From positions 1 through 64,000 of IMG/VR virus record IMGVR_UViG_3300028569_000022: a stretch of DNA of 64,000 bases. One strand, written 5' to 3'. Positions within the stretch are counted from its first letter, which is position 1. The number at the start of each line of letters is the position of its first letter. This DNA is from a virus. The notes below the pieces were generated by a model. That model made no database searches. It was not told the DNA's origin and saw nothing but the letters and a program-made list of their open reading frames with translations. Positions 1-59,308 of the stretch are shown in pieces. The translations under genes and the position numbers were made by a program.

Positions 1-352
1 AAGTAAATTCCATCAAGCAAGGGATTATACAAAGAACGGAAGCATTTAAACCAACCGCAACTGCTGCTGTATCTAAGACTAAGGAGTTTGCTGTAGATTC
101 ATTTACAAAGTTAAAAGATAATACAAATTCGCTTGTTGAGTCTCTTGTTAAGTCGATTACTAAAATAGCTACGTCGCCCGAGACAACGAAGGCATTAGAG
201 ACGGGAAAAAAGTCATTAGAACAAGTTGGAACTAAAGTAAATTCCATCAAGCAAGGGATTATACAAAGAACGGAAGCATTTAAACCAACCGCAACTGCTG
301 CTGTATCTAAGACTAAGGAGTTTGCTGTAGATTCATTTACAAAGTTAAAAGA
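1..352 (+). repeat. Tandem direct repeat, 234-bp period, within the coding region
   Basis: Bases 1-118 recur without a mismatch at 235-352. The period of 234 bases is exactly 78 codons, so the repeat keeps frame. The array is cut by the window edge and may contain more copies upstream. The copies encode a Lys-rich segment containing NSIKQGIIQRTEAFKP. Confidence 0.95.
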
Positions 353-3300
353 AAACACTACTTCATTATTCAATACAATAGCCGCGCCTTTAAAAAAGGC
401 ATCAGAATCTTCTCAAGCAAAAGATGTAAAAAATGCCGGCAGTCAATTGTTAGATGGAGTTAAAGGATTTTTTTCTTCATTAAAACAGATTAAAGTACCA
501 GCAGATTCTTCGCAAAAGGCTGACGGCAAAGTGGCTGCTAAGAAAGAATATTCTGACCACCCAGAAGCAATTAGAAGCAGAAAAAGACGAGCTGCTGCCA
601 ATAATGAAGTGCTTGATGGTCAGGCTGTTTACGAAGAAAATTCTAAGATTAAAGAGAAAAAAAAGAAAAAGGGTAGCGACACTAGAGAGAATGATACTAA
701 TGTCAAAGAAGAGTCAGCTAGAAATTCAGCAGTAGTAAGCGAAACAAAAAGCCAAAATAGAACTGAGCAAACTTCTCCTCCATTAGCTGTCTCCTCCTTA
801 CTTGATGAAGATCCCACAGCTAACCGTTCTTTATTAGAGCAAGAAGAAAAGCCTCAAATCATGCTATTCGGTGGATTTACTGAAAATGGCGTTAAAAATT
901 TAAAAGAGAAGCTTCCGGAAATTGTTGGAGACATGTTTAAGGCTCCGACGGAAAAGAAAAAGAAAGATAAGGACAAAGAAAAACCGAAAGACGATGGATC
1001 TTCAAGCTTGCTTGACATGCTAAAAGGAACAGGTCTTTTTGCCTCGCTTGGCATTCTTATTGCTGGAGGAGCTCTTGTGTTGGGTGGGCTTGCAGCTTTA
1101 GTAAAAGGATTGAGTACGGATGGTCCGTTTAAAGGAATTTTAAAGATCTTAGCTCAAGGTGGTTTAATTGGTGGTATAAAACTCTTAGCAGTCGGAGCAA
1201 CACGGTGGATGGCTTCGTTGAGTGCACTGGTACAATCGCCTTTTGCCTTAATGAGAATGTTGGGAGGAGCGCTTGGCAAAGTTACGGGAATGTTTACTGC
1301 GTTTGGTTCTAAATTAATGGGAATGTTTTCTTCTGGAATTGGAGCAGTTGCTAGAATGCTCCCTACTACGGGAATATTTGGATCAATCACCAAAGTAATT
1401 GGTGGTTTTTTTGCAAAATTTGTTGGAAAAGGACTCAATTTTATTCCTATTATTGGTCCAGCAATTAGTTTGGGATTTGCTGTTAGTAGATTATTAAAAG
1501 GTGACGTTATCGGTGGATTAATAGATGTTGCTTCGGCTTTAGTCAGCTTTATTCCTGGAGTCGGTCCAATATTAGGCACTACACTCAGTCTAGGCCTGAG
1601 TGTATTGAATGCTGTTTTGGATTGGAAAGGGGGCGGATCCAAACCTGGAGCAACGGCCAACAAAGGAGGAATTTTAATGGGGTGGTTGAAGGGGTTAGGC
1701 AATCTCATCCTAAAGGGAGCAATGGCGCTTCCAATTATAGGGCCAGGAATTAGAGCGGTTAAAGCAATGATCGCAAATGATTATGGCGAAGGATTAAAAC
1801 AGCTAGCTTATATGATTCCTGGAGTAGAGCTTATTGGAGCTTTGTTCGGAGATAAAAACGTAAGTGCTGTTTCTGGTGGGGCCGCGAGCATGATAAAAGG
1901 CACTGCTGGATTTTTAGGCAAAGCTATAGCATGGGTAGCTAAAATGATATATGGTGGTATAAAGCAACTTCCTATCATTGGGCCTGCACTCAAAGCAGTA
2001 GAAGCATTTTCTAGTGGGAATTTCTTAAGAGGGTTGAAACAACTGGCTTACATAATGCCTGGAGTAGAGCTTATTGGAGGGTTTTTTGGAGACAAAGACG
2101 TTGGGGTGGTAGGCAAGGTTGGAGGAGTTGCTGGAGGATTGACGAAGTGGGTTGGTGGATTTGCTGCTTGGGTATTTAAAAAGATATATGCTGGCGTCAA
2201 ACAGCTTCCGATTATTGGACCAGCCTTGAAGGCTGTAGAGGCTTTTGCTAGTGGCAACTTCCTCAAGGGATTAAAACAGCTAGCATATATAATTCCACCA
2301 TTTGAAATGATTGGAGCTTTATTTGGCGATAAAGAAACTGGAGGAGTTGCAAAGGTTGCTGCTGCTCCGATCGGGTGGATTGGATCTCTCGCTAAATGGG
2401 CACTAAAGAAAATAATTTCAGGGTTAAAATTACTTCCAATTATAGGACCTGCAGTAAGTGCTCTTGGTGAGTTTGTTAAAGGTAATTTCTTAAAGGGGTT
2501 AAAGCAGATGGCTTATATATTCCCTCCATTTGAGATGTTGGGAGGTCTGCTTGGTGATAAAGAAGCTGGATCTGTTGCAGGAAAAGTTGGAGGGGGAGTA
2601 GGAACCGTGGCTGGATGGATTGGATCTCTTGCTAAATGGGCATTAAAGAAAATAATTTCTGGGTTAAAATTACTCCCAATTATAGGACCTGCGATAAGCG
2701 CACTTGGAGAATTTGCACAAGGTAACTTCTTAAAGGGGTTAAAGCAACTTGCCTATATGGTTCCTGGAATGGAAATGTTAGGGGGATTGCTTGGTGATAA
2801 AGAAGCTGGATCTGTTGTTGGAAAAGCTGGTAATACAATAGGAAATTGGATTAAAGGATTAAAAGATTGGGTGTTTGAAAAAATTACTAACATGCCGGTC
2901 ATAGGTCCTTTAATCAAAGGCATAAAGTGGCTCGCAACTGATCCACTAAAAGCACTAAAAACTCTAGCATTAGCCGTTCCAATTTTAGGAGGAATATTAA
3001 GCTTCTTTGGAATAAAAGAAGAGAAAGAAGGAGACGCTGCTGCTCCGCCTGCTCCCAAAAGTCCATTTGCTGCAATTAAAGACATGATTCTTGAAAAAGC
3101 AAGAGCATGGTGGAAAGGAACATGGTCGTGGGTTCGCTGGTTAGCTGCAAAGGTTTTACCAGAAGGAATAGTAAAAGCATTAGACGAAGGAAGCTTAGCT
3201 AAAGAAGACATTAAGACGGAAGGAGAATCTGCTGAAGGAGGTTCTGAACAAGTCAAACCAGCAGCAGAAACAGCAGAGCCTCCTGCTGACAGCAAAGAGA

Positions 3301-5501
3301 CTGTAGATGCAAAAGCCGCTACCACATCTCCTGTTGTAAGCAGCACACCACAAGAACAACAAGCCGCTCCTACTACCACTGCAAGCAGCGAAGCAGTCGT
3401 TACACCACAAGAACAACAAGCAGCTCCTACTACTCCTACAAAAAGTGAGGCTAAAAATTCTCCAATTATAAGTCAAGCCAAAAAAGCTGCAGAACGTCCC
3501 AAAGATTACATAGATCAAAAAATAGAAGCCGTAAAAGAACAATCTGCTGACGATGAAGCATATAAAGTCGACAATATATTTGATCCGAAGAGTTATATTG
3601 GAGCAGCTGAACAAATAGGAGAAAAGACTCGCAAAACTATTAATGGCATTTACAAAATGCTTGGATCAAAAGCAGCAGACCTTGCAATGTTTGCTGCTGT
3701 TGGAAATAAGCTAAAGTCTAAACCTTCTGAAGAAGCAGCTGAACAAGAAGCACTATTAAAACCTCAGAAAGACAAAACGTCTGAAGGTACTTCTGGGACG
3801 CTTAAAGGAGGAGAAGTAGAAAGTGGATCGACAAGCGAATCATCACCCAATCCTGCAGTTAAAGGCAACCAAAAAGATGTTTCTGTGTCTTCTAGTAGTT
3901 TTAGCGAATATGATAACGATGATTCACCTGAGGTGAGGAAGAAACGAAATGATGCTAGTGTCGCTTACCGTGAAACTCGTGATAGTGATCCCGAGTATAT
4001 TAAAGACAAAGAGAGACGAGGAGCTTTTAAAGCTCAACAAAGATATAACAAAAACAATCCGTTTCAAGATCCAACTGATGACGGAAAAAAGGTTGAATTA
4101 ACAGAAGCAGATGCAAAAGATGCAAAATCAATAAAAGCATCAGAGACGGTAGTTACAGAATCAACAATAAACGGCAAAGGTACTCACTCCACTACAACAT
4201 CTTCGACCAACGCTGCACCATCTTCTGATAAGTCAAGACCAGCTGTAACAGCAAGTCCTAAACAAGAAGCTTCACCAGGAGATATTGCTGCTGAAAAATT
4301 TGGTCTAACGAAAACAGATGACGGCACGTATATTTCCGAAGATGGTTGGAAATATACGTACAAAGATGGTGTATTTTCCGATGAGTTCGGAGAAGATGCA
4401 ACGGATGAGTTAAGAATTGAACGTAAATCAAATAAAGTTAAATCAGCTGGAGGGACTTCAGCAGAGTTCAGTGGTGGTGAAGTGGTGCCAGGAACAGTTT
4501 CTGGAAAACCTTCTAAAGAGGGTGCAGAAAAACCAGCAATGGATTCTAAAGCATCTTCTGATAAGTCAAGACCAGCTGTAACAGCAATTCCTAAGAAGGG
4601 ATCTACACCAGAACAACAACCTGCTGATTTAAGTAGTTTACTAGCAGCTAAAGAGAAAAACGATCCGTTAAAAACTAAAAATTACGATAAAATTACAGCC
4701 GAGCTCGTAAACCAAGGTATAACTTCACCAGCTGAATATGAACAGGCAGTTCGAGACGGAAGAATATCTAAAGAATTTGATACAGCGTTTAAAAAACAAT
4801 ACACTCGAAAATCCTTAGGGGAAGCGTCGAGCGAACAGATATTTGCAGAACGTTTAGCGGTGAATTTAAAGGAAGCTCAAGTAAAAAAAGCAGCTGGTGT
4901 GTCTCCTGACCAACAGAACTACGAAGTGTCTGGAAGTGTAGAGGGAAATAAAAAAGCTTCAGTAAATTCTGTTGAGACTACTAAAGCGTCTTCTGATAAC
5001 TCAAGACCAGCTGTAACAGCAGTACCCAGAGAACAGGGACAAGTACACCTAGGTGCTCATGACTATATACAACGGGATCTTGAATCTCAGTTTGCCTCTC
5101 CTGTTGATTTAACTACTACTGCTCCTGAAGAATTAACAGCTGAAGCAACGCCTGACGAAACAACATCTTCTTCCTCATCGCAAAGTACTACGATAGACTC
5201 AGCAGTTGCATTGGGAGGTGGAAAATCCGATCAATTATTAACAAAAATTGCAGCAAACTTTGATACATCAAATCAAAACTTATCATTACTAGTCCGTGGG
5301 TTTAATAAGTTAGCAGGCGCCTTAGGACAACTTGGCGTATCTATAGCTGAAAAGCCTGGTGGAAATACTATTGTTAACTCAAATTCTGGTGGGGGCGGCG
5401 GACAAGCTCCAGCACGAACGTCTGAAATAGCTAAGGGCGGAAATCAAGAAATTGCTAACTTCAGAGCAAGTATTGAAAAAATGAAACAGCGTCCAGCTTA
5501 A
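1..5501 (+). CDS. Giant repeat-rich virion protein, 5' end outside window (tail tape-measure candidate)
   Basis: The reading frame is open from the first bases of the window, so this is the 3' part of a longer gene; the TTG at 447 is only an internal codon. The visible part runs in order: a Lys/Ala-rich tandem repeat of 78 residues, a Lys/Glu-rich linker, a Gly-rich hydrophobic core (about bases 1020-3030) with at least six copies of an LPIIGP...LKQLAY...GDK unit, a long Ala/Ser/Thr/Glu-rich low-complexity region, and a C-terminal segment ending in a Gly-rich stretch. It lies directly upstream of a tube-initiator-like gene, the place a tape measure holds in T4-like tails (known of T4). Repeats, hydrophobic segments and position fit a tape measure, but I recognise no specific family; a large tail or internal virion protein is the alternative. 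Confidence 0.6.
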   Translation, partial: VNSIKQGIIQRTEAFKPTATAAVSKTKEFAVDSFTKLKDNTNSLVESLVKSITKIATSPETTKALETGKKSLEQVGTKVNSIKQGIIQRTEAFKPTATAAVSKTKEFAVDSFTKLKENTTSLFNTIAAPLKKASESSQAKDVKNAGSQLLDGVKGFFSSLKQIKVPADSSQKADGKVAAKKEYSDHPEAIRSRKRRAAANNEVLDGQAVYEENSKIKEKKKKKGSDTRENDTNVKEESARNSAVVSETKSQNRTEQTSPPLAVSSLLDEDPTANRSLLEQEEKPQIMLFGGFTENGVKNLKEKLPEIVGDMFKAPTEKKKKDKDKEKPKDDGSSSLLDMLKGTGLFASLGILIAGGALVLGGLAALVKGLSTDGPFKGILKILAQGGLIGGIKLLAVGATRWMASLSALVQSPFALMRMLGGALGKVTGMFTAFGSKLMGMFSSGIGAVARMLPTTGIFGSITKVIGGFFAKFVGKGLNFIPIIGPAISLGFAVSRLLKGDVIGGLIDVASALVSFIPGVGPILGTTLSLGLSVLNAVLDWKGGGSKPGATANKGGILMGWLKGLGNLILKGAMALPIIGPGIRAVKAMIANDYGEGLKQLAYMIPGVELIGALFGDKNVSAVSGGAASMIKGTAGFLGKAIAWVAKMIYGGIKQLPIIGPALKAVEAFSSGNFLRGLKQLAYIMPGVELIGGFFGDKDVGVVGKVGGVAGGLTKWVGGFAAWVFKKIYAGVKQLPIIGPALKAVEAFASGNFLKGLKQLAYIIPPFEMIGALFGDKETGGVAKVAAAPIGWIGSLAKWALKKIISGLKLLPIIGPAVSALGEFVKGNFLKGLKQMAYIFPPFEMLGGLLGDKEAGSVAGKVGGGVGTVAGWIGSLAKWALKKIISGLKLLPIIGPAISALGEFAQGNFLKGLKQLAYMVPGMEMLGGLLGDKEAGSVVGKAGNTIGNWIKGLKDWVFEKITNMPVIGPLIKGIKWLATDPLKALKTLALAVPILGGILSFFGIKEEKEGDAAAPPAPKSPFAAIKDMILEKARAWWKGTWSWVRWLAAKVLPEGIVKALDEGSLAKEDIKTEGESAEGGSEQVKPAAETAEPPADSKETVDAKAATTSPVVSSTPQEQQAAPTTTASSEAVVTPQEQQAAPTTPTKSEAKNSPIISQAKKAAERPKDYIDQKIEAVKEQSADDEAYKVDNIFDPKSYIGAAEQIGEKTRKTINGIYKMLGSKAADLAMFAAVGNKLKSKPSEEAAEQEALLKPQKDKTSEGTSGTLKGGEVESGSTSESSPNPAVKGNQKDVSVSSSSFSEYDNDDSPEVRKKRNDASVAYRETRDSDPEYIKDKERRGAFKAQQRYNKNNPFQDPTDDGKKVELTEADAKDAKSIKASETVVTESTINGKGTHSTTTSSTNAAPSSDKSRPAVTASPKQEASPGDIAAEKFGLTKTDDGTYISEDGWKYTYKDGVFSDEFGEDATDELRIERKSNKVKSAGGTSAEFSGGEVVPGTVSGKPSKEGAEKPAMDSKASSDKSRPAVTAIPKKGSTPEQQPADLSSLLAAKEKNDPLKTKNYDKITAELVNQGITSPAEYEQAVRDGRISKEFDTAFKKQYTRKSLGEASSEQIFAERLAVNLKEAQVKKAAGVSPDQQNYEVSGSVEGNKKASVNSVETTKASSDNSRPAVTAVPREQGQVHLGAHDYIQRDLESQFASPVDLTTTAPEELTAEATPDETTSSSSSQSTTIDSAVALGGGKSDQLLTKIAANFDTSNQNLSLLVRGFNKLAGALGQLGVSIAEKPGGNTIVNSNSGGGGGQAPARTSEIAKGGNQEIANFRASIEKMKQRPA
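1728..3030 (+). repeat. Degenerate coding repeats, about 76-80 residues each (LPIIGP units)
   Basis: Six units begin with LPIIGP or MPVIGP near 1728, 1968, 2208, 2439, 2679 and 2892. Most continue with GNFLKGLKQLAY, a hydrophobic P-G/P-E-M-I-G stretch and GDK. A diverged copy (IPIIGPAIS) lies just upstream near 1446. Units 4 and 5 are the most alike (shared WIGSLAKWALKKIISGLK), suggesting recent duplication. Confidence 0.85.
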
Positions 5502-5562
5502 ACGTTTTTGAAGGATAAATAACATTATGTCTTTCAGTACTAATACACCTTCAAAAACGTTT
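5500..5562. other. Perfect 15-bp inverted repeat enclosing a late promoter and start codon
   Basis: The left arm is 5500-5514 (aaacgtttttgaagg) and the right arm 5548-5562 is its exact reverse complement. The 33-base loop holds most of the promoter octamer at 5514-5521 and the start codon at 5527. A read-through transcript could fold this stem, while a transcript starting at the late promoter would lack the left arm. Confidence 0.75.
5514..5521 (+). promoter_or_regulatory. T4-type late promoter, GATAAATA
   Basis: One mismatch to the T4 late consensus TATAAATA. It ends 5 nt before the ATG at 5527. With the T4 geometry (octamer at -13 to -6) transcription would begin at the start codon itself. 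Confidence 0.65.
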
Positions 5563-6684
5563 CCTTCTCAGAGAATTAGTATTGATGATGAATTGTTGTT
5601 GAGGCCACTGAATAACGTCACAGCAGCTCCTCCTGACGAGGCATCTTCACAAACATTTGAAGTTACAAATCCAGCAAACAAAACAGAGGTAGCGCCTGCA
5701 GCAGCTCCAATGGAAACATATGCTGGATACGACATGGAAAAACCTCTTTCAGACGATCAAATGGGCAGCTCTGCTTCAACTTTTGATCGCAAAACTCAAA
5801 GCCCCAAAACTGATGATATCGTTCATAGTTATCCTTGGACTGCTTCAAACATTAAAAGAGATGATATTCCATATATTGTTTTAGCTGAGCATAGAAATAC
5901 AGAATCTACGTTGATGAGACAAATGCAGTTTTACGGTAAAGGGGTAGTAAACACAGCAGGTGGAGCATTTGGAGCTGCTCCTAAGGGGTTACTTGAAGTA
6001 TATGATGAAATTTTTCCTGATAATCCAACAAACAACAAATACATATTTCCTTACTTTTCCAAAAGTGCTTTTGATTTAGGAACGACAAAGTGGGAGCAAA
6101 TGGATGAAATCAGTCAATCAATTAAAGATGTGACTGGAGGTGCTGCTGATATGTTAGACCAATTTTCAGTCACAAAAGGAATGGGAGACATGGTAAGAAC
6201 CGGAATGAAAGTTGGGGAGTTTGCAGGGGCAGCAGCAATGACAGCGCTGAAAGGAATGTATCCAGTAGTCGGAATCTTTGATAGACCACGCGTGTTCTCT
6301 GCACACAACGACAGAGAAATTACAATTGAATTTCCTTTATATAATACGTTAACGCCGGGGGCTTGGAAAAAAAATCGAGATTTCATCTATAGGTTTATGA
6401 GTCAAAACTTATATATAAAGCGAGATTTTATTACAGGCATTCCTCCTTGCTTTTATAGAGTATATGTTCCTCAGCAATATTTCTGTTTTGCTTCATGTGT
6501 TACAAACATCAAAGTTGAAAACTTAGGAAACCAACGAATGATTGGTGATTTTATTGTTCCTGATGCCTATCAGGTTTCCATAACGTTGTCGGAGATGGTA
6601 ATGCCTAGCTTAAATCAGTTCCAAGCATTAATTAACGGCGATGCGCAAGGAAGAGTTAATGTAATAGCGAAAAAAAAAGCGTAG
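5527..6684 (+). CDS. Tail-tube initiator / baseplate-tube junction protein, gp48/gp54-like
   Basis: 385 residues. The first ~95 are low-complexity and Pro/Ala-rich. The rest looks like a tube-fold protein, with a C-terminal beta-rich part (VFSAHNDREITIEFPLYNTL, then VTNIKVENLGNQR and PDAYQVSITLSEM) of the kind seen in T4 gp48/gp54, which cap the baseplate and nucleate the tail tube. It sits between the tape-measure candidate and gp53, which supports a baseplate-tube junction role. The start is the ATG 5 nt after a late-promoter octamer. The assignment rests on pattern and position, not on a strong signature; another tube-fold baseplate protein is possible. Confidence 0.5.
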   Translation: MSFSTNTPSKTFPSQRISIDDELLLRPLNNVTAAPPDEASSQTFEVTNPANKTEVAPAAAPMETYAGYDMEKPLSDDQMGSSASTFDRKTQSPKTDDIVHSYPWTASNIKRDDIPYIVLAEHRNTESTLMRQMQFYGKGVVNTAGGAFGAAPKGLLEVYDEIFPDNPTNNKYIFPYFSKSAFDLGTTKWEQMDEISQSIKDVTGGAADMLDQFSVTKGMGDMVRTGMKVGEFAGAAAMTALKGMYPVVGIFDRPRVFSAHNDREITIEFPLYNTLTPGAWKKNRDFIYRFMSQNLYIKRDFITGIPPCFYRVYVPQQYFCFASCVTNIKVENLGNQRMIGDFIVPDAYQVSITLSEMVMPSLNQFQALINGDAQGRVNVIAKKKA

Positions 6685-6699
6685 TAAATAAGGATACAA

Positions 6700-7044
6700 A
6701 TGAGACAACACGACATTAAAGAGCTGAAAAGATTGGATCCACAATGTTTGGAAAATATGTTTAATGTGTATAAGGATCAATCAGGCAGCTATTACTATAA
6801 TTTAATAAAAGCTTTGGCTCTGCCTGAAAAATTACCAAACAGTTTATATAAAGTTTATACAATAAGTCCAGGAGATACGTGGCCCATGATTTCGTATAAG
6901 CATTATGAAACTCCAAATTTGTGGTGGTTGATATTATACGCAAATAAAATAATGGATCCAACTAAAAAAATTATTCCAGGAGACACTATTAAAGTATTAA
7001 TCGTAGATGTAGCTAAAGAAATAATGTTACAACTAAGAAAATAA
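6700..7044 (+). CDS. gp53: Baseplate wedge protein gp53-like
   Basis: 114 residues, shorter than T4 gp53. The core reads GDTWPMISYKHYETPNLWWL followed by a short turn and a PGDTIKV segment. This LysM-like pattern (gdtw..Ia.k.Yg.p.lwWli...N) is characteristic of the gp53 family, which holds neighbouring baseplate wedges together. Sixteen bases separate it from the preceding gene, with a plausible ribosome site (aagga) 5 nt before the ATG. The next gene follows after 4 bases, so 5527-8866 reads as one operon. Confidence 0.8.
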   Translation: MRQHDIKELKRLDPQCLENMFNVYKDQSGSYYYNLIKALALPEKLPNSLYKVYTISPGDTWPMISYKHYETPNLWWLILYANKIMDPTKKIIPGDTIKVLIVDVAKEIMLQLRK

Positions 7045-7048
7045 TATT

Positions 7049-8866
7049 ATGGGTAATATCATTTCTGACGGATTATCAAAAGTAATTACACCAATAATTA
7101 ACACTGGACTCGATGCCGTGAAGGACGGCATTAGAGCTACTGCAAATGCAGTTCGAGGTGTAATAAATGGAACAAGCGGAAAGAAAAGCTTTTCTGCCGG
7201 AAAGTTTTTTGAGCAAAAGTATAATGAACTTACTCATAAAGTAGAGTTTTGGTTAGACAACAGCGGAGATTTAAAGGAAGTGGCAAACAAAGTATATCCA
7301 ATAAACCCAGCCGCAGTAATGGAGCTGAAATTAGTAAACAATTTAGGTGACTGGGTTGTAGAGGGTAGTATGATATTTATGTACATGGTTGAAGATGCTA
7401 TTTCATCTCAGCATCTTTCGCTTGCTCAAAGCTTCATGAGTTTTATTAATGGTGCAATGGAGAATTCTGAAACAATGAAGACATTTCAGTTTAGAGGTGA
7501 TGGATATGACTTACTGAGAGTGTCAATAATACCAATCACCAGAGAAGGAGAAGCAGAATCAGGAACCTCTTTACCTATTCAAGAGGGAGATCCAAAGTGG
7601 TGTATAAGTCATCTCTTTTCAATTTATGAAATGGAGGATATTAATGACGTTCCTGGAATGAAAGGTCCGATGGCTGCATACATGAAATGTGTAAAAATAT
7701 ACTTCAGAGATGTTAGGCAGCATATATTACAAACTACTAATCTAGAATACTCTACGGCATATAGTCCTGATGCAGATAATTCAACTCTTTTAGCAAAAGA
7801 GGGTGCACTAGAAACAGGAAAAGCAATAGTTGAAGTGTGGAATAAGTCAGTAGGAGAACCAGCTGCTGGTGGGCTTGAAGAACTCAAAATAATAATTCCA
7901 AATCCAGAAGAATGGGATGAAGGTAGTACAAAAATATTTTATACATCCCCAGCATCAACTTCTGCTGCTGAAGATATAGAATATTTGTTAGCTCATCACG
8001 CAAGCAAAGAACCTTTAGAAGGAGCTGAGGTAGATACAATACACGACATGTGTTTGTTGACTACGCAGCATCCAAAATCTCCTGACTTACTTGAAGATTT
8101 GACGTTAGTTCCTCTTACTAAAATATTTAAAAAAGCAACAGAGGGGGATCAAGCTGGTGAGTTACAATTAGAACATTTCTTTGTGACGTCTCAATCTCAA
8201 CGGGGGAACTCTGTTGATTTGGGATTTAAATCTCCGTTTAGTGAGGATCCAAATCGCGACTTAAAAACATTCAAATACGGACAAATTATTTCTTACAGTT
8301 TTATTGATATGAATCCTCATATTAATAGTTCTTCATTTACGTCTGCTCCTCTATATTCAGTAGACGTGGGAAAGAGAACGTTTAAAGTCAAATTCGAGAA
8401 AAATGATATATTAACTGTAAGAAAACTTATAACAGAGAACTACATAAAGCCTTTATTTAAAGGAACTGCGAATAGCGAAAAGTTATTTATTCCTACCTTA
8501 CATCAAACTAAAAAAGCATATAACCTATTTCCGACATTCACTCTGAATGGTGATGATGTTAATTGGGGAGAGTTATTACGACAAAAAAACAGCTTGCATA
8601 GTCTTATGTATACTGGACTATTTCAGAGCACATGTATATGCTTTAAGACGTTCGGATTAACATTGAGAAGTCCAGGAACGTTTATTGCGATTGACAAGAC
8701 TGACGGAAGTACTGATAACGATTATAATAATAAATTATATGGTCAGTGGTTTGTGGTCAGAGTTGATCACGTATTTGAAGCAGGATCGTTTATGAATGCT
8801 ATTTATGCTGTAAAGATACATAGATTTAAAGAAGCTCACGAACCTTTTGAGGCAATTTTAGAGTGA
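7049..8866 (+). CDS. Baseplate hub protein, gp27-like candidate
   Basis: 605 residues, no signal peptide or membrane segment. The C-terminal quarter is the most recognisable part: TLRSPGTFIAIDKTDG, then GQWFVVRVDHVFEAGSFMNA and an AVKIHRFKE end. A 'W-V-V-x-V-x-H-x-F ... N-x-I-x-A-V-K' pattern closing a beta-barrel is typical of gp27-type hubs. The middle carries Asp/Glu-rich segments I cannot assign. The gene lies 4 bases after gp53 in the same operon. The inferred role is the central baseplate hub beneath the tube; the N-terminal half could instead be a phage-specific addition. Confidence 0.45.
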   Translation: MGNIISDGLSKVITPIINTGLDAVKDGIRATANAVRGVINGTSGKKSFSAGKFFEQKYNELTHKVEFWLDNSGDLKEVANKVYPINPAAVMELKLVNNLGDWVVEGSMIFMYMVEDAISSQHLSLAQSFMSFINGAMENSETMKTFQFRGDGYDLLRVSIIPITREGEAESGTSLPIQEGDPKWCISHLFSIYEMEDINDVPGMKGPMAAYMKCVKIYFRDVRQHILQTTNLEYSTAYSPDADNSTLLAKEGALETGKAIVEVWNKSVGEPAAGGLEELKIIIPNPEEWDEGSTKIFYTSPASTSAAEDIEYLLAHHASKEPLEGAEVDTIHDMCLLTTQHPKSPDLLEDLTLVPLTKIFKKATEGDQAGELQLEHFFVTSQSQRGNSVDLGFKSPFSEDPNRDLKTFKYGQIISYSFIDMNPHINSSSFTSAPLYSVDVGKRTFKVKFEKNDILTVRKLITENYIKPLFKGTANSEKLFIPTLHQTKKAYNLFPTFTLNGDDVNWGELLRQKNSLHSLMYTGLFQSTCICFKTFGLTLRSPGTFIAIDKTDGSTDNDYNNKLYGQWFVVRVDHVFEAGSFMNAIYAVKIHRFKEAHEPFEAILE

Positions 8867-8899: not shown

Positions 8900-9778
8900 A
8901 TGTTGAAATTTCATTCAACTTTTGATAAAATAATTTTCTACATGGATCATCTTGATAAACTCGAATCGCAAAGCATCTACATTCTTCGTGAAGCCTACCA
9001 TAGCTTTTCCAACCTCTGCATGCCGTGGAGCATGGGTAAGGACTCTAACGTTCTGATCTGGCTTTCAAAAAAAGCATTTTGTGGTCACATCCCATATCCG
9101 TTACTACACATTGATACCACGTATGAGTTTCCAGAGATGCTGGAATTTCGTGAGTGGGCAGTTGAAAAATACAAGCTCGATTTGATCGTGAAGATCAATG
9201 ATGATGCTCGTAAAGGCATTGGTTCTTATACTACTTCTATTGGCTACGAAACTCACGATCCAATGACCGTCACACATGAACTAAAAACAGTGGCCCTCCA
9301 ACAAGTCCTAACAGAACGAAAGTTTGACGCGCTTATCACTGGTATTCGTCGAGATGAAGATTCAACACGTGCAAAAGAACGTTATTTTTCGCCTCGTAAT
9401 GCTGAATTTGAGTGGGACTATAAAGATCAACCGCCGGAGTTCTGGAATCAATTCACTACGGCATTAGAACCCGGCGAGCACATCCGTGTTCAGCCGTTGT
9501 TAGATTGGGCAGAAGTTGACATCTGGCGCTACATCGAGCGGGAGAATATTCCGATTCCACAAATGTATTTTGCGAGAAAGGGTGAAGATGGATTAAACTA
9601 CCGTTTCCGCTCATTAGGCTGCTGGCCTATTACAAAGCCAGTGCAAAGCAATGCAGTTAATATAGAGGAAATTATTGCTGAACTTTTAGTCACAAAAACT
9701 AGTGAACGGTCAGGCCGGGCTCAAGATCATCATGAGCGAAATGCTATGCAAAAACTTCGCGCTAAAGGATTTATGTAA
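8900..9778 (+). CDS. cysD: Sulfate adenylyltransferase subunit 2 (CysD)
   Basis: 292 residues, close to the family length of about 300. CysD is the ATP pyrophosphatase subunit that, with the GTPase CysN, forms adenosine 5'-phosphosulfate (APS) from ATP and sulfate. The PP-loop is visible as SMGKDS (residues 44-49). Other CysD features are LESQSIYILREAY near the start, LLHIDTTYEFPEM, GIRRDED with RAKERYFSPR, and the end RSLGCWPITKPV...TSERSGRAQDH. The conserved similarity begins near the second Met (8942), so that start is possible, but the ATG at 8900 follows an ATTAAATT element at the usual late-promoter spacing. Codons such as CGC and GCC make it look imported relative to its AT-rich neighbours. 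Very confident of family; intact. Confidence 0.95.
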   Translation: MLKFHSTFDKIIFYMDHLDKLESQSIYILREAYHSFSNLCMPWSMGKDSNVLIWLSKKAFCGHIPYPLLHIDTTYEFPEMLEFREWAVEKYKLDLIVKINDDARKGIGSYTTSIGYETHDPMTVTHELKTVALQQVLTERKFDALITGIRRDEDSTRAKERYFSPRNAEFEWDYKDQPPEFWNQFTTALEPGEHIRVQPLLDWAEVDIWRYIERENIPIPQMYFARKGEDGLNYRFRSLGCWPITKPVQSNAVNIEEIIAELLVTKTSERSGRAQDHHERNAMQKLRAKGFM

Positions 9779-9840
9779 GATCGTAGTTTAAATTACATCC
9801 TCGATCTATTTTCTCATATTATTTATATAATTTTTACTAA

Positions 9841-11730
9841 ATGAACTCTTTTAACGAAAACACACAATTAACCACTTCAAAACTTAAAACCGTAATTGTT
9901 GGTCATGTTGATCATGGCAAGTCAACTCTTATAGGACGTCTCTTTCACGATACTGATTCATTACCAGAAGGTAAGATAGAACAAATACGTAATGCGAGTA
10001 CTGCTGAAGGAATGGAATTTGAATTTGCATTCTTGTTGGATGCTCTTCTCGAAGAGCAAGAACAAAACATTACAATAGACACAACTCAATTGCCATTCCG
10101 AACAAAACTCAGAGAGTATGTAATTATTGATGCTCCTGGCCATAAAGAATTTTTGAAAAACATGATTACTGGTGCAGCTAATGCTGATGCTGCTATTTTA
10201 CTCATTGATGCACACGAAGGCATTCAAGAGCAATCTAAGCGTCATGCTTATTTGCTTTCATTACTAGGAGTCGAACAAGTTATTGTTGCAATAAATAAAA
10301 TGGACCTTGTTGGATTTAAACAAGAGATATTTGATAGAGTTTGTGCGGAATATTCGGAATTTTTAAAGAGTCTCAACATAATTCCTAGGCAATTTATACC
10401 AATCTCAGCCAAACACGGTCATAACATCACCGCCCCGAGCAGTGAGATGCAGTGGTTCACAGGACCAGCTATTCTTGACGCTTTAGATCAACTTGATACG
10501 CCAAAAACTCTGGAAGGACTGCCTCTGCGTTTTGTTTTACAGGACATTTACCGTTTTGATGAGCGCCGAATTCTTGCTGGTCATATTGAATCAGGTAGAC
10601 TAACTGTCGGCGAGGAATTAGTCTTTTGTCCAAACAGTAAAAGCAGTCGCATAAAAACCATAGAAAGTTGGGGGTCTGATATTCCTAAAACTTCTGCTTT
10701 TGCTGGAGAGTCTGTTGCTATTACTCTTGAAGAACAAATCTTCGTTGAACGGGGACAGATTGCCAGTAGTATAAACGGTTGTCCTATCGAGGGCAGAGAA
10801 ATACAAGCAAGTCTCTTTTGGTTATGTGATGAACCATTAGCGCTTGATAAACCATTTAATCTTAAAATAGGCACACAATCGGTAGAAGGTCGCGTAAAAG
10901 AATTTCAACGAATTTTAAATTCTTCCACATTAGAGCCAATCACCAAATCCCGAACCAGCCTTTTAAAAAACGAGGTAGCTGATGTTCTTATCCGCTTACG
11001 TAAGCCTATTGCGTTTGATAGCAACTCCTACATTAACAGCACAGGCAGATTTGTTATTATTGTAGGTAAACGAATTGGGGGAGGAGGAATTGTTCGAGAA
11101 GCGAACTATAAACATTCAGAAGTAATCAACAAAGATATCACATGGACATTGAGTAATGTATCCAGAGAATCTCGAGCTAAATTATTTGGTCACCGCGGAG
11201 CTGTTATCTGGCTTACGGGATTATCTGGTTCTGGCAAGTCTACTTTAGCTACAGCACTTGAAAATCAACTCTGTGGGCGAGGGATAGCATCATTTGTTTT
11301 AGATGGAGATAATCTTCGTCACGGCCTTTGCTCTAATTTATCATTTACTCATGAAGACAGAACAGAAAACATTAGAAGAGCAGGTGAGACAGCAAAAATA
11401 ATGGCTGAAGCTGGATTGGTTGTTATTTGTTCTCTCATTTCACCTTACCGAGCAGACAGAGATATCGTTAGGAGAATTTGCCAACACAACAGTATACCAT
11501 TTGCTGAAGTTTTCATTAATGCTTCGCTTCAAACATGTGAATCTCGTGATCCACGAGGATTGTACAAAAAGGCTCGTTCAGGAGAGATATCTAACTTTAC
11601 TGGCGTCAGCTCGCCTTATGAACCACCAGAAAGTCCGGAACTTGAAATTGTCACTGATGTGTGTACAAAAGAAGATTCTTTGATTAAGCTCGTCGATTTT
11701 GCTGGTGAGTTTGTGTCTCATTCTTTTTGA
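9841..11730 (+). CDS. cysNC: Bifunctional sulfate adenylyltransferase GTPase / APS kinase (CysN-CysC fusion)
   Basis: 629 residues, the normal length of CysNC/NodQ fusions. Residues 1 to about 440 are an EF-Tu-like GTPase: G1 GHVDHGKST (21-29), G3 DAPGH (97-101), G4 NKMD (152-155), and ISAKHG. The rest is APS kinase, with P-loop GLSGSGKST (460-468), then [25 protein letters not shown] and [10 protein letters not shown]. Together with CysD it converts sulfate to APS and then to PAPS in the cytoplasm. All nucleotide-binding motifs look intact, so both activities are plausible. It lies 62 bases after cysD and both are forward. No PAPS reductase or sulfotransferase was found in the window, so the use of the PAPS is open. 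Confidence 0.95.
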
Positions 11731-38140: not shown

Positions 38141-39208
38141 ATGACAAACAAATATGAATGGCTTAACAAAGACTCGCGAAAATTTCTCGAAAGAGGATAT
38201 TTGTTAGAAGGAGAAACTGCTGAGCAACGAATTAGAGATATTGCAAATGCTGCAGAAAAATATCTTGATATTAAAGGCTTTGCTGATAAATTCGAGGGGT
38301 TCATGGAGAAAGGATTTTTTTCATTATCAAGCCCAATATGGTCAAATTTTGGACGGACTAGAGGCTTGCCTATAAGTTGTTTTGGCTCCTATATTCCTGA
38401 TACGATGGAGGGAATCATGGAAAAAGTATCAGAAACTGCTATCATGACAAAACACGGAGGCGGCACATCTGCTTATTTTGGAGATGTACGTGGAAGAGGA
38501 TCAGCAATTTCATGTGGAGGAGAATCTACGGGTTCCGTTCATTTTATGGAGCTGTATAACAAACTAATGAATGTTGTCTCTCAAGGAAATGTTCGCAGAG
38601 GTTCGTTTGCTGCATATCTTCCAATAGACCACAAAGACATTGAGGAATTTTTACAAATTCGTTCAGAGGGACATGATATTCAAGAGTTATCATTTGCGGT
38701 GACTGTTTCTGATGAATGGATGAAAGATATGGTTGCTGGTGACAAAGACAAGCGAAGAATTTGGTCTAAAGTCATTCAAAAACGCTTCGAAACTGGCTAT
38801 CCTTATATTATGTTTTCGGATACAGTTAACAACAATGCTCCTCAAGTGTATAAAGATAAAGGATTGAAGATTAATAACTCAAATCTTTGTGTAACAGGAG
38901 ATACTTTAATCACCATTCTTATTAATAATTCTGAGAAACGTCAGATACAAATCAAGGACTTGATGTTCTATATGAAGAAGTATGAGGACGTCAAAGTAAA
39001 AGGATGCGACACTACCGAAAACAAAGTAGAATTTGAAAAAATAGAAGTGTTTGCTCAGACTGGAGAATCTACTGAATTATATGAAATTGAAGACGAGCAC
39101 GGAAACGTAATTAGATGCACACCAGACCACCAACTATACACAAAGAACCGTGGTTATGTAATGGCAAAGGATCTCAAAGAAGACGACATCTTACAAAGCG
39201 AAAAATAA
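38141..39208 (+). CDS. nrdA: Ribonucleotide reductase large subunit, N-terminal half fused to N-terminal split-intein fragment
   Basis: 355 residues. Residues 1-249 are the N-extein of a short NrdA without the N-terminal ATP-cone (it starts directly with WLNKDSRKFLERGYLLEG). Cys80 (LPISCFGS) matches catalytic Cys225 of E. coli. Residues 250-355 are an intein N-fragment: block A CVTGDTLITI, and block B with CTPDHQLYTKNRGYVMAKDL; it then stops. The C-terminal intein fragment and rest of NrdA lie at 40132-41133, beyond a free-standing HNH gene. The exteins join as NSNL|CSEICLS, rebuilding the conserved SNLCxEI active-site motif. This is an organised split gene, not a decayed one. Confidence 0.93.
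   Translation: MTNKYEWLNKDSRKFLERGYLLEGETAEQRIRDIANAAEKYLDIKGFADKFEGFMEKGFFSLSSPIWSNFGRTRGLPISCFGSYIPDTMEGIMEKVSETAIMTKHGGGTSAYFGDVRGRGSAISCGGESTGSVHFMELYNKLMNVVSQGNVRRGSFAAYLPIDHKDIEEFLQIRSEGHDIQELSFAVTVSDEWMKDMVAGDKDKRRIWSKVIQKRFETGYPYIMFSDTVNNNAPQVYKDKGLKINNSNLCVTGDTLITILINNSEKRQIQIKDLMFYMKKYEDVKVKGCDTTENKVEFEKIEVFAQTGESTELYEIEDEHGNVIRCTPDHQLYTKNRGYVMAKDLKEDDILQSEK
38888..39205 (+). other. N-terminal split-intein fragment (IntN), 106 residues
   Basis: It begins at Cys250 of the fused protein, the nucleophile for the first splicing step. Block B has the TxxH pattern (TPDH). It ends at the stop codon, with no linker or endonuclease domain fused. The partner IntC is 40132-40230. The block B and C-terminal sequences resemble the NrdA/NrdJ split inteins I know from environmental phage-like DNA. 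Confidence 0.9.
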
Positions 39209-39224
39209 CATAATATTAGATAAG

Positions 39225-39261
39225 TAATTACAGAGCATAGACCATTTATGCTCTGTAATTA
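39225..39261 (+). other. Perfect 15-bp hairpin at the start of the homing-endonuclease gene
   Basis: The left arm taattacagagcata (39225-39239) pairs without mismatch with 39247-39261 across a 7-nt loop. The right arm includes the A of the HNH start codon. No poly-T follows, so it is not a simple terminator. In an mRNA read through from nrdA it would hide the start; a control role is inferred by analogy with T4 I-TevI. Confidence 0.8.
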
Positions 39262-40139
39262 TGAACTACAAATTAATACATGATGAGCTAATAAATTATT
39301 GTAATGGAGTATCCCCGCAAATGAGACTAAAACATAGAAATAAAAACGACGAAAGACTCAATAGTTCTTCTTTGTATGTTGAAATTCATCATATTCTTCC
39401 ACGGTCTTTAGGAGGCACAGACGAGATTGCAAATTTAGTAGAAGTATTACCTGAAGAACATATATTTATTCACATGCTTCGATATAAATTATACAAAAAA
39501 AGAGAAGATGCATTAGCTGTACGTTTTTGTTTAAATGGAATGAAATTTAATAAACAGAAAAAGCATGGGTTATCTTCTCTTATTTTAACAAAAAAACTGC
39601 GCATGGGGTATGCATGGATTAGAGCAAATGCTCAAACTGTTAGACAAACAGAGGGCTGGCATACTCCAGACGGAATTAAAAGAATTTCTGAAGCAAGAAA
39701 AGGCAAAATACCAGTAAAAGATATAGATACTAATCAGTTTATTGGAGCTGTTTCTAACACTCATCCCAACGTAATTTCAGGTAAGTGGGTGCACCACACC
39801 AAAGGTAGACGTATATCCGAAGCTGAAAGACAAAAAAGAAAAAACATCGGAAAGGGTCAGAGCAATAATAATGCCTCAGGACTTTCGGAAGAGTACTTTA
39901 TCCAAAAGGGTCTAGAAGCATTCAATGAGTTTGGAATAATATTAACATGGAAAGCAATGTTAATATTGTCTCAAAAAAGAGGCTTTCCGTGGATAAAAAG
40001 CACAAAAAGTAGGTTTAACGGTAAAAGCATTAGAGGTTATTATTCAATTTTAGAAGAAAAGACAGGAACAAAATTTAATTCTTTTGCTGCTAGATCTTTA
40101 TCAAAAACCAAGTTAAAATTAAAAGAAATTTATGATTAA
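39261..40139 (+). CDS. Free-standing HNH homing endonuclease between the nrdA halves
   Basis: 292 residues. The nuclease core is EIHHILPRSLGGTDEIANLV followed by LPEEHIFIH, a typical HNH metal-finger. Downstream is a NUMOD-like DNA-binding segment (KRISEARKGKIPV, and again RRISEAERQKRKN), then a basic C-terminal domain. Such enzymes cut intein-lacking or intervening-sequence-lacking alleles so that the element is copied in by recombination. It is an independent gene: its own ATG, and a stop that overlaps the next ATG (40132). The start codon lies in a perfect hairpin and no Shine-Dalgarno is visible, so translation is probably restrained. Confidence 0.9.
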   Translation: MNYKLIHDELINYCNGVSPQMRLKHRNKNDERLNSSSLYVEIHHILPRSLGGTDEIANLVEVLPEEHIFIHMLRYKLYKKREDALAVRFCLNGMKFNKQKKHGLSSLILTKKLRMGYAWIRANAQTVRQTEGWHTPDGIKRISEARKGKIPVKDIDTNQFIGAVSNTHPNVISGKWVHHTKGRRISEAERQKRKNIGKGQSNNNASGLSEEYFIQKGLEAFNEFGIILTWKAMLILSQKRGFPWIKSTKSRFNGKSIRGYYSILEEKTGTKFNSFAARSLSKTKLKLKEIYD

Positions 40140-41133
40140 AATACGCAAAATTACAAAAACTGAACCTGTATATGACATTACAGTAAAAAAAATTAAGAAT
40201 TTTTTTGCAAATAAAATATTGGTCCACAACTGTTCTGAAATTTGTCTTTCTAATTCTCAGGATGAGTCGTTTGTTTGCGACCTTTCCTCTTTAAATTTAG
40301 AGAAATGGGATGAAATAAAAGACACTGATGCTGTAGAAACTCTAGTATATTTTTTGGATGCTGTAATGACCGAATTTATTAATAAAACAGAAGGCATGCA
40401 GTTTATGGAGGCTCCTAGGAAATTTGCTGTCAACCAACGAGCCCTTGGAGTGGGTGTTCTTGGCTGGCATTCGCTGCTCCAATCAAAGATGATTGCGTTT
40501 GAGTCATTTGATGCAAAGATGCTCAATGTCAATATTTGGAAGACTATTAGAGAGCGTGCAGATAAAGCTACCGAAGAGTTGGCTTCGCTTTTTGGAGAGC
40601 CAGAATTGCTTAAGGGGTATAAAAGAAGGAACTCAACTACTCTTGCTGTGGCTCCCACTACATCTTCCAGTTTTATCTTAGGACAAGTATCTCAATCGAT
40701 AGAGCCAATGAATAGTAATTTTTATTCTAAAGACTTAGCTAAAGGACGCTTTAGTCACAAAAATCCTCACCTCAAAGAGTTGCTCAAAACTAAAGACAAC
40801 AATACAGACGAAGTGTGGAAGTCGATTCTTTCAAACGGAGGATCCGTTCAACATTTAGATTTTCTTTCTGAAGTTGAAAAGGATGTATTTAAAACGTTTG
40901 AAGAAATTTCACAAAAAGAAATTGTTATTCAAGCAGCTCAACGCCAAAAATACATTGATCAATCACAAAGTTTAAACTTGATGATTCCTCACAACGCGAA
41001 ACCGAAAGAAGTTAATGAACTTCTCATATTTGGATGGGAACAAGGAATTAAAACGTTTTACTACCAAAGATCATCAAATCCTGCACAAAAACTTGCTAGA
41101 TCCATTATGACTTGTAAATCATGTGAGAGTTAA
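40132..41133 (+). CDS. nrdA: C-terminal split-intein fragment fused to NrdA C-terminal half
   Basis: 333 residues. Residues 1-33 are IntC: block F VYDITVKKIKNFFA and block G NKILVHN, followed by Cys34 as the +1 nucleophile. Residues 34-333 are the C-extein. Cys34 corresponds to the thiyl-radical Cys439 of E. coli NrdA, Glu36 to Glu441, and Cys49 (FVCDLSSLNL) to Cys462. Tyr310-Tyr311 match the radical-transfer YY pair, and a C-terminal CKSC (328-331) matches the shuttle cysteines. The spliced enzyme would have 549 residues, plausible for a phage NrdA lacking the ATP-cone. All catalytic residues are present. The ATG overlaps the HNH stop by 8 bases. Confidence 0.93.
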   Translation: MIKIRKITKTEPVYDITVKKIKNFFANKILVHNCSEICLSNSQDESFVCDLSSLNLEKWDEIKDTDAVETLVYFLDAVMTEFINKTEGMQFMEAPRKFAVNQRALGVGVLGWHSLLQSKMIAFESFDAKMLNVNIWKTIRERADKATEELASLFGEPELLKGYKRRNSTTLAVAPTTSSSFILGQVSQSIEPMNSNFYSKDLAKGRFSHKNPHLKELLKTKDNNTDEVWKSILSNGGSVQHLDFLSEVEKDVFKTFEEISQKEIVIQAAQRQKYIDQSQSLNLMIPHNAKPKEVNELLIFGWEQGIKTFYYQRSSNPAQKLARSIMTCKSCES

Positions 41134-57085: not shown

Positions 57086-59308
57086 TTAGAACGTTCCGCC
57101 ATCCAAAATTAACATGAGATTATCAATGTAATTTTTGGTTGCAACGTGAGAAGCTAATGTAGGTTCAGCTGCTTCGACTGTGCCAGAAAACTTACCGTTA
57201 CCGATTACGTCTAACGCTTCGGTAGGAGCTTCTGTGTTAACACCGACTACGCCAGCGCCGACAAACAATGTTGCTGTTTCATCATTGTTTACTGAAATCT
57301 CAACGCCGTTAGCAGCAGTAATAGTTCCAGAAACATCTAAGTTTCCAGAAATACTTCCACCAGTAAGGTTTAAGAAGTTAGTGTCTACATATGTATTGAG
57401 ATTACTGATTGTTGCTTCAAGAGCATCAACTTCGTTATTAATAGTTGTATTGAGAGTGCTTACTTCGTCAGCTAAGTCAGAAGCAATTGCTGCTTCAGCA
57501 GCTGTTGCACGGCTAACTTCTGAATCAAGTTGACCTTGGAGGTCAGATGAAACTGAAGATATTGTCGTTGAACTGTTATTAGCGAGTGTTGTTATTGCAC
57601 CGTTAAGATCGCTGTCAGCCTGTTGAAACGCACTAACGATTTCAGTTAAGGAATCGAGAGCTGCTCCATCAACGTTGCTTAGAACGTTATCAATTTGTGA
57701 TTGTATGTTGCTTGCAACACCAGAAATCGTTGAATTGAGTGTTGAAACTTCGCTGTCGATCTTTGAATCGAGAGTAGAAGAAACGGACACCATTAACGAA
57801 TTGAGGTCTGAATCAGCAGTAGCACGAGCTGAAGCTTCATCAGCAATGTCTGAAACCAGACCAGCTGAGATAGAAGCAACAGTTGATGTTAAATCGCTGA
57901 TAGCAGTGCCACGATTGGTAACTTCGTCAGCTAGGTCAGAAGCAATTGCTGCTTCAGCAGCCATTGCGCGGCCTTCTTCAGCAGATACAGCAGCAGTAAG
58001 AGTGCTTACTTCAGAAGCAATTGATGCTTCAAGTGTAGCAACTTCAGAGTCAATTTTTGAATCAAGAACGCCTTCAGCTGTCGTAGCACGGCTAACTTCG
58101 TCTGACAAGTCAGATGCGAGACTAGCTTCAGCAGCGATTGCACGGCCACTTTCTGCAGATACGGCAGTATTGAGAGTGCTTACTTCAGAAGCAATTGATG
58201 CTTCAATTGTTGCAACTTCTGAGTCAATTTTTGAATCAAGACTAGCAGAAACTGAAGCTAATGATGTTGAAGCAGAGTTTGCGAGACTAGTAATAGCACC
58301 ATTGATATCGCTGTCAGCAGATTGAAAAGCTGAAACGATTTCAGTTAAGGAATCAAGCGCAGCAGCGTCAACATTACTAAGAACATTATCAATTTGTGAT
58401 TGTATGTTGCTAGAAACAGATGCGACTGTTGTGTTGAGAGTGCTTACTTCAGAAGCAATTGATGCTTCAAGTGTAGCAACTTCTGAGTCAATCTTAGAAT
58501 CGAGAGTGCTTACTTCAGAAGCAATTGATGCTTCAAGAGTGCTTACTTCAGAAGCAATCGATGCTTCAAGTGTTGCAACTTCTGAGTCAATTTTTGAGTC
58601 AAGAGTGCTTACTTCAGAAGCAATTGATGCTTCAAGTGTAGCAACTTCTGAGTCAATCTTAGAATCGAGAGTGCTTACTTCAGAATCAATTTTTGAATCA
58701 AGCGTAGAAGAGACAGACTCAACTGTAGTAGTTAAGGCTGAATCGGCAGCTATACGAGCAGCTTCTTCAGTTGAAAGATCGCTTTTGATCTCAGCTGAAA
58801 GGCTAACTAATGCTGCGGACGAATCTGAGGCTAAACCGTCTAAATCCGACTGCAAAGACGATGAGATTGAATCCATCGTGGAATTAACACTATTAATCGT
58901 ATTAACGAGATTCGTAGCAAAGTTTTCGTCATTGCCTAAAGCAGAAGCTAATTCATTAAGAGTATTAAGCGCATCTGGAGCCATATCGATAACTGCAGCA
59001 ATTTGCGCATCGATTTTAGCATCAAGAGTGCTTGATACAGATTGAATAGTTGTGTTTAGCGTAGCAACTTCTTGAGTAACTCTTACATCAATAGATGTTA
59101 TGTCCGTTTGGAGATCGGCTGAGATCGAGCTGACGCTAGCGTCAGTTGCAAAATGACCGTCGCCTCCAATAGGTATTACGCCATTTTCTGAACCATAGTA
59201 TAATACTGAGTCTACTTCGTTGAATGCCAATTCACCACCAGAGAGTGCTGCAGGAGCACCAGCTTCACCAGTAGTACGGCGTTTAATGAGGATTGTGTTG
59301 TATGCCAT
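57086..59308 (-). CDS. Long coiled-coil tail fibre
   Basis: 740 residues. N-terminal module: YNTILIKRRTTGEAGAPAAL, GELAFNEVDSVLYYG. The long centre (~75-600) is a repetitive helical coiled coil of 11-residue units (DSKIDSEVATL, EASIASEVSTL), broken by small segments such as NVDAALDSLTEIVSAFQ that occur twice. The C-terminus is a beta tip with ISGNLDVSGTITAANGVEI, VGVNTEAPTEALDVIGNG and a final YIDNLMLILDGGTF. The architecture is that of a trimeric phage tail fibre. It is followed by a strong terminator. No clear late octamer lies at the usual spacing before its ATG. Confidence 0.8.
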   Translation of the reverse strand: MAYNTILIKRRTTGEAGAPAALSGGELAFNEVDSVLYYGSENGVIPIGGDGHFATDASVSSISADLQTDITSIDVRVTQEVATLNTTIQSVSSTLDAKIDAQIAAVIDMAPDALNTLNELASALGNDENFATNLVNTINSVNSTMDSISSSLQSDLDGLASDSSAALVSLSAEIKSDLSTEEAARIAADSALTTTVESVSSTLDSKIDSEVSTLDSKIDSEVATLEASIASEVSTLDSKIDSEVATLEASIASEVSTLEASIASEVSTLDSKIDSEVATLEASIASEVSTLNTTVASVSSNIQSQIDNVLSNVDAAALDSLTEIVSAFQSADSDINGAITSLANSASTSLASVSASLDSKIDSEVATIEASIASEVSTLNTAVSAESGRAIAAEASLASDLSDEVSRATTAEGVLDSKIDSEVATLEASIASEVSTLTAAVSAEEGRAMAAEAAIASDLADEVTNRGTAISDLTSTVASISAGLVSDIADEASARATADSDLNSLMVSVSSTLDSKIDSEVSTLNSTISGVASNIQSQIDNVLSNVDGAALDSLTEIVSAFQQADSDLNGAITTLANNSSTTISSVSSDLQGQLDSEVSRATAAEAAIASDLADEVSTLNTTINNEVDALEATISNLNTYVDTNFLNLTGGSISGNLDVSGTITAANGVEISVNNDETATLFVGAGVVGVNTEAPTEALDVIGNGKFSGTVEAAEPTLASHVATKNYIDNLMLILDGGTF
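58430..58700 (-). repeat. Near-identical 33/66-bp tandem coding repeats
   Basis: Units encoding STLDSKIDSEVATLEASIASEV (22 residues, 66 bases) repeat with few changes, including one partial 33-base unit. More distant copies lie at 57760-58240. Such arrays can expand or shrink in frame and change fibre length. Confidence 0.85.

Follow-up and report, generated by a model that had tools for sequence, protein, structure and literature searches.

A tape-measure-like gene with two physically different repeat arrays in an uncultured virus

The gene, its relatives and its neighbors

The window analyzed here comprises 64,000 nucleotides of a virus record of 91,440 nt, base 1 of the window being base 1 of the record, and opens inside a tape-measure-like gene (positions 3–5501, plus strand) recognized from its open frame, synteny and homologues. 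As the frame is open at its left end, its 1,832 codons cover only the 3′ portion of the complete gene, whose 5′ end is missing, cut off by the contig end. A homologue on a separate contig, L002, has a complete frame of 2,152 codons (start codon set mechanically) and 77% identity to the window protein over the conserved core and the repeat array described below. When the aligned conserved region was used for scanning, 75 loci were located in viral contigs; genome contigs yielded 12 pattern matches but, as none of these was confirmed, no locus. For gene order we used 79 loci, the 75 together with relatives found via the hub protein; locus counts are not independent because many loci are near-identical contigs. 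The missing 5′ end of the window gene was recovered neither by a scan with the N-terminal repeat (12 matches, none confirmed) nor by one with the upstream chaperone of L002, which returned only the contig of L002 itself.

In all 67 loci with downstream DNA, the next recognized gene is one resembling the tube cap or tube initiator (5527–6684, plus strand; the position of T4 gp48/gp54), starting at most 28 nt from the end of the frame. It is followed by a gp53-like baseplate wedge protein with a LysM-like domain (6700–7044, plus strand; phrog_232, E = 3.8e-7; LysM match E = 0.0037, below the curated cut-off) and by a large baseplate hub-like protein (7049–8866, plus strand), a conserved neighbor; the two were found in 63 and 60 of the 67 loci, respectively. 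We take the first of these genes to be a putative tube cap from its position and a general resemblance, 5527–6684 having no family match, and the last to be a putative hub, likewise from its position, 7049–8866 having no family or PDB sequence match. Upstream, 63 of the 79 loci carry a gp26-like (PF12322-type) gene no more than 1.5 kb away; eight loci with more than 3 kb of upstream DNA have no recognized gp26-like gene within that distance, and in eight others the upstream DNA is shorter than 3 kb. Farther upstream, many loci contain tube genes and the sheath, named from PHROG and Pfam matches in L003. The gene thus has tail tube/chaperone genes on one side and tube-cap/baseplate genes on the other, as is expected of a contractile-tail tape-measure protein and as in the T4 order, where gp29 stands before the tube-cap genes.

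Profiles annotated as tape-measure protein match some of the relatives: of 45 homologues, 11 match phrog_167, the best of them at E = 1.1e-14, L002 matched a PHROG profile so annotated at E = 2.7e-5, and NCBIfam RcGTA_tape matched one of the 45 (E = 5.6e-6). Long matches of this kind may be partly driven by composition. The window protein itself had no Pfam, NCBIfam or tape-measure-family match, its sole PHROG match being phrog_17020, of unknown function (E = 0.0015). Searching named phages by tblastn with the window array and hub gave no match; the same search with L050 gave 21 weak records, some annotated as tape-measure protein (E = 0.002–0.007). PDB sequence searches at E up to 1 returned one match for the hub profile and 11 for the whole-family profile, none named as a phage tail protein. 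Two AlphaFold2 models were all-helical at low confidence, with mean pLDDT 43.9 for the window core and array (12 alignment rows) and 46.6 for a two-unit alignment (46 rows).

A profile named "peptidase", phrog_23178, matches more relatives than phrog_167 does (21 of 45 vs. 11), overlapping the core in the members scanned singly; another named "endolysin", phrog_34252, matches 14 of 45, and proteins of named phages carrying one partial core module are annotated as peptidase or hypothetical. Such matches could mean that the protein is not a tape measure but a baseplate-hub or injection protein of the virion that shares a membrane-active core module with virion peptidases. We consider this improbable, as the gene directly precedes the tube-cap-like gene in every locus with downstream DNA and usually follows gp26-like genes, as T4 gp29 does. 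Internal lytic domains are, besides, known within tape-measure proteins (PMC10194240). The initial identification as a tape-measure candidate, made from the letters alone, is therefore supported by the invariant tube-cap-like neighbor and by the profile matches of some relatives; as for matches to families of other function, Pfam and NCBIfam gave none for the window protein, yet the "peptidase" PHROG matches those 21 relatives. Most likely, this is the gene that determines how long the tail is in a contractile-tailed, uncultured phage.

Several other features of the window and of other contigs were recorded. Following the hub gene, the window carries a PAPS-reductase-family gene and a CysN-CysC-like sulfate-activation fusion (8900–11730); no such frame was found at the corresponding place in L002. 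At 38141–41133 a ribonucleotide-reductase-like gene is in two pieces, each with an apparent intein half, and a separate 292-residue HNH-like frame stands between them; this presumably resembles the "fractured gene" arrangement of split inteins. Tandem repeats of 33, 66 and 99 nt lie at 58437–58702 in a 740-residue fiber-like frame on the minus strand. Among other contigs, L003 has a terminase-like gene with intein-like inserts, recognized by eye (1078–3345), and L103 encodes a Gly-rich (GGLGG) protein of 728 residues (503–2686) with no PHROG match at E 0.01, just before an 839-residue gene that we take to be spike-like.

Two arrays of different kind

The part of the gene nearest the contig start is a tandem repeat with a period of 234 nt, or 78 codons of the frame, and comprises a copy cut by the contig start (1–234, plus strand) and the last copy (235–468, plus strand). 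At this lag, bases 1–118 are identical to bases 235–352 (0 mismatches), which confirms the 78-codon repeat of the preliminary description and its identity at the DNA level; the 118 nt are a lower bound, because a 234-nt tandem duplication with its left part cut off would look alike. The following 116 nt show only 43% identity. The number of copies is also a lower bound, since the window starts at base 1 of the record. The repeat is a charged amphipathic helix, with a charged fraction of 0.26 and a Gly+Pro fraction of 0.07. Its hydrophobic period is 3.70 in both the window protein and L002, above what shuffles give (power 12.3, with 95% of shuffles at or below 7.1) and close to the value of 11/3 expected for a hendecad helix.

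The contig begins inside this repeat, and the right end of the record lies in another, a Thr/Pro-rich tandem repeat (L007 11051–11433 of 11440; region L007 10808–11440), so that the N-terminal identity might be suspected of being an assembly artefact at the contig end. This has hardly any probability in our judgment: L002 contains four diverged copies with a best lag of 78 (second best 89, that is 78+11), which makes the N-terminal array itself real, and a true repeat would by itself cause a contig to end within it. With both ends of the record within repeats, they look like assembly breaks at repeats. Among the 79 proteins, a profile of the 78-residue repeat matched only the window protein and L002. 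A clear repeat before the core was found in 16 of the 77 core-bearing proteins, with best lags of 78 (window), 11 (L002), 18, 21, 22, 33, 36, 41, 48, 51, 58 and 120 residues.

The second array consists of hydrophobic modules with an LPIIGP-type motif. By profile, it contains five full units on the plus strand: unit 1 (1728–1967, 80 residues), unit 2 (1968–2204, 79 residues), unit 3 (2205–2432, 76 residues), unit 4 (2433–2672, 80 residues; also covered by a tandem-repeat row at 2376–2830) and unit 5 (2673–2891, 73 residues). They are followed by a degenerate unit 6 (2892–3098, plus strand, residues 964–1032; E = 4e-10 with the iterated profile and 1.3e-4 with a window-only profile) and preceded by the conserved core module (1443–1727, plus strand, residues 481–571), which begins 95 residues before unit 1 and is homologous to the units by the iterated profile and a units-only test. 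The motif starts at residues 482, 577, 657, 736, 812, 892 and 965, giving spacings of 95, 80, 79, 76, 80 and 73, and there is an extra loose match at residue 993, inside the last unit. Chance is excluded for this array by the profile E-values of the five full units (2e-38 to 3e-42, with a profile built from these units themselves) and by the array of L002, which has identical spacings of 80, 79, 76, 80 and 73. The LPIIGP units had been described at spacings of 71–80 residues: the array stands, its spacing is 73–80 here, and two members, the core and the degenerate last unit, had been missed.

An iterated profile of 74 positions joins units and core into one module. With a profile made from units only, 72 of the 77 cores score below E = 1e-3, compared with 1 of 759 scored shuffles, a supportive but not fully independent test because the units had been gathered with a profile containing cores; the core/unit profile–profile probability is 97%, and a seed profile from the window alone matches cores of L010, L012 and the window at E = 0.003–0.04. 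The presence of the core in 77 of the 79 proteins is partly by construction, as most relatives were collected with two peptide patterns taken from it; the two proteins lacking it, L009 and L011, both came from the hub scan. The module units are hydrophobic, with Gly+Pro fractions of 0.19–0.25 and charged fractions of 0.15–0.24, and have no helical hydrophobic period. Only a few 19-residue segments of the array exceed 1.6, the hydropathy threshold applied, which makes the units weaker than transmembrane helices of the classical type.

The similar periods of the two arrays had been taken to suggest one structural ruler, with both arrays at a 78-residue pitch fitted to the stacking of tail discs. 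Tail discs rise about 3.9–4.1 nm each, and 78 helical residues span 11.7 nm, near three discs; L002 shares the N-terminal lag of 78, and the mean unit spacing of the family, 76.8, is not far off. Across 25 distinct proteins, however, the register-corrected unit spacings range from 67 to 86 (sd 4.9) and none of 47 equals 78. Phase tests gave P = 0.032, 0.016, 0.008 and 6e-6 for 25, 26, 27 and 39 residues and no clustering for 11 and 13; the rows are related and a single hump of sd 4.9 alone yields about the same values, so these decide nothing. Where other relatives repeat near the N terminus, they do so with different periods, the 78-residue repeat itself occurring in 2 of the 79 proteins, and the arrays differ in physical kind: the second, Gly/Pro-rich and with no helical periodicity, is unlikely to cover the same distance per residue. 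A common ruler is thus very unlikely; the similar period of the two arrays, found in one lineage, is probably a coincidence.

Module copy number in related phages

The hydrophobic repeat is a module carried in different numbers by related phages. Counting the core, the window protein and L002 have seven copies each (core, five full and one degenerate), and the 52 distinct complete homologues have none in two cases, one in three, two in 27, three in seven, four in 10, five in two and seven in one. In a tree of units, each window unit is closest to the L002 unit at the same position, and the array therefore predates the split of the two. Units 4 and 5 of L002 are 81% identical, compared with 73% between unit 5 and its window partner, a likeness that suggests continuing homogenization. 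Elsewhere in the tree, units of L015, L030, L031 and L083 are nearest to a unit of their own protein, and units 1 and 2 of L003 are also close, pointing to what would be separate duplications. All 38 cores group together (support 0.50).

Close relatives differ by whole modules. L003 (888 aa) has one extra unit of 79 residues in comparison with L004 (819 aa), the two loci having protein identities of 97% for the tube, 99% for the gp26-like protein, 96% for gp53, 89% for the hub and 75% for the cap. Similarly, L046 (824 aa) has one extra 86-residue unit in comparison with L064 (720 aa), L065 (639 aa) and L077 (788 aa), at identities of 97–98% for the gp26-like protein, 93–97% for gp53, 92–95% for the hub and 64–66% for the cap. 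These whole-module differences support the suggestion, made when the repeats were first noted, that the gene's length is still changing. The gene has further indels between the same relatives which, together with the low cap identity, indicate that the tape-measure-like gene and the adjoining cap gene evolve faster than the rest. Across the family, the N-terminal region accounts for a share of 0.61 of the length variance and the module array for 0.19.

The tube-cap-like gene following the tape-measure gene (L026–L098) is itself weakly conserved, with 64–75% identity between close relatives, far below its neighbors, and so may coevolve with the tape-measure protein. Contig ends are also unevenly placed. 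Twelve of the 79 loci end inside the tape-measure-like gene; with near-identical contigs counted, 9 of 75 contigs end in the first 750 nt downstream of the core, compared with about 2.3 per 750 nt farther out, and upstream of the core there is no excess, with one in the nearest 750 nt. Gain and loss of modules would also fit the excess just downstream of the core.

Proposed roles and comparison with known systems

Near the N terminus an amphipathic helix of 78 residues is tandemly duplicated; we propose that this makes the helical tape longer, each copy, if fully helical, being worth about 11.7 nm of additional tail. For comparison, removal of 347 residues from the TP901-1 tape measure reduced the tail from 118 to 65 nm (PMC5099701, available text), a slope of 0.153 nm per residue at which one 78-residue helix would amount to about 12 nm of tail, if counted. 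The hydrophobic Gly/Pro-rich modules of about 74 residues would travel in the tail tube and most likely either insert into the membrane or form a channel when DNA is injected, or else dock chaperones. We hold it reasonably probable that this reading applies as a whole, the protein being the tape measure of a T4-like phage in which the N-terminal repeat adds helical length and the hydrophobic modules act in membrane passage or dock chaperones.

That the modules are specifically docking sites for tail-assembly chaperones, the upstream gp26-like proteins, with copy number determining the number of chaperones on the tape, is an appreciable though minority possibility. The gp26-like genes found within 1.5 kb upstream in most loci agree with it, as does the link between hydrophobic regions of tape-measure proteins and chaperone binding (PMC5099701), but PF12322 is described as a baseplate protein and not a tape-measure chaperone. 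For membrane passage, a bolder and rather doubtful extension is that the number of membrane-active modules inside the tail would be the means by which the family tunes genome delivery, pore-forming or membrane-inserting units being gained and lost singly so that the injection channel would fit the envelope of the host, with little dependence on the helical ruler that sets tail length. Close relatives one module apart are natural pairs in which to compare two roles for hydrophobic tape-measure segments, a contribution to tail length and action in membrane passage.

Among named phages, a search restricted to six chosen proteins gave one partial core module each (E = 1.3e-6 to 1.6e-5) in virion proteins of Prochlorococcus phage P-HM1 (gp019), Synechococcus phage S-MbCM7 (008), Xanthomonas phage X1 and Acidovorax phage ACP17. 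In the first three, genes annotated as gp26, gp51 or baseplate hub lie just upstream of the core-bearing protein, and in ACP17 a gp26-like gene is nearby on the other strand. Unlike the window protein, none of the four was found to have a tandem array; the P-HM1 protein is annotated as a peptidase, and those of S-MbCM7, X1 and ACP17 have what we take to be hydrolase-like motifs. With T4 gp29, about 590 residues long compared with more than 1,832 here, the gene shares the position before the tube-cap genes; it differs in that no sequence match to a T4-type tape-measure family was found and in its tandemly repeated modules. For gp29 too, a membrane role of a hydrophobic stretch has been proposed (PMC11948020).

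Gain and loss of repeats in tape-measure proteins are already known (PMC3271669, in part). Siphophage tape measures with aromatic repeats of 11 or 11/18 residues have tandem helical repeats that are gained and lost, and their same-position copies in two relatives are closer than copies within one, as in the window protein and L002 (available portions of PMC3271669 and PMC5099701); here, by contrast, repetition extends to an entire hydrophobic module, and neither the sevenfold [FW]-x10 pattern nor the 11-11-18 pattern (Belcaid 2011) occurs in any of the 79 proteins. The TP901-1 tape measure resembles ours in having a pair of hydrophobic regions (71 and 89 residues) that are predicted to span membranes, and a 43-residue deletion in the first shortened the tail; it is that of a siphophage, however, and the available text does not describe the two regions as homologous copies (PMC5099701). 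Among the matches listed in a literature search, titles and the beginnings of abstracts did not describe tandem hydrophobic modules in tape-measure proteins. The tape-measure repeats of the cited literature, as far as its available parts go, are short and helical, whereas here members of a single family contain as many as seven copies, counting the core, of a whole hydrophobic module.
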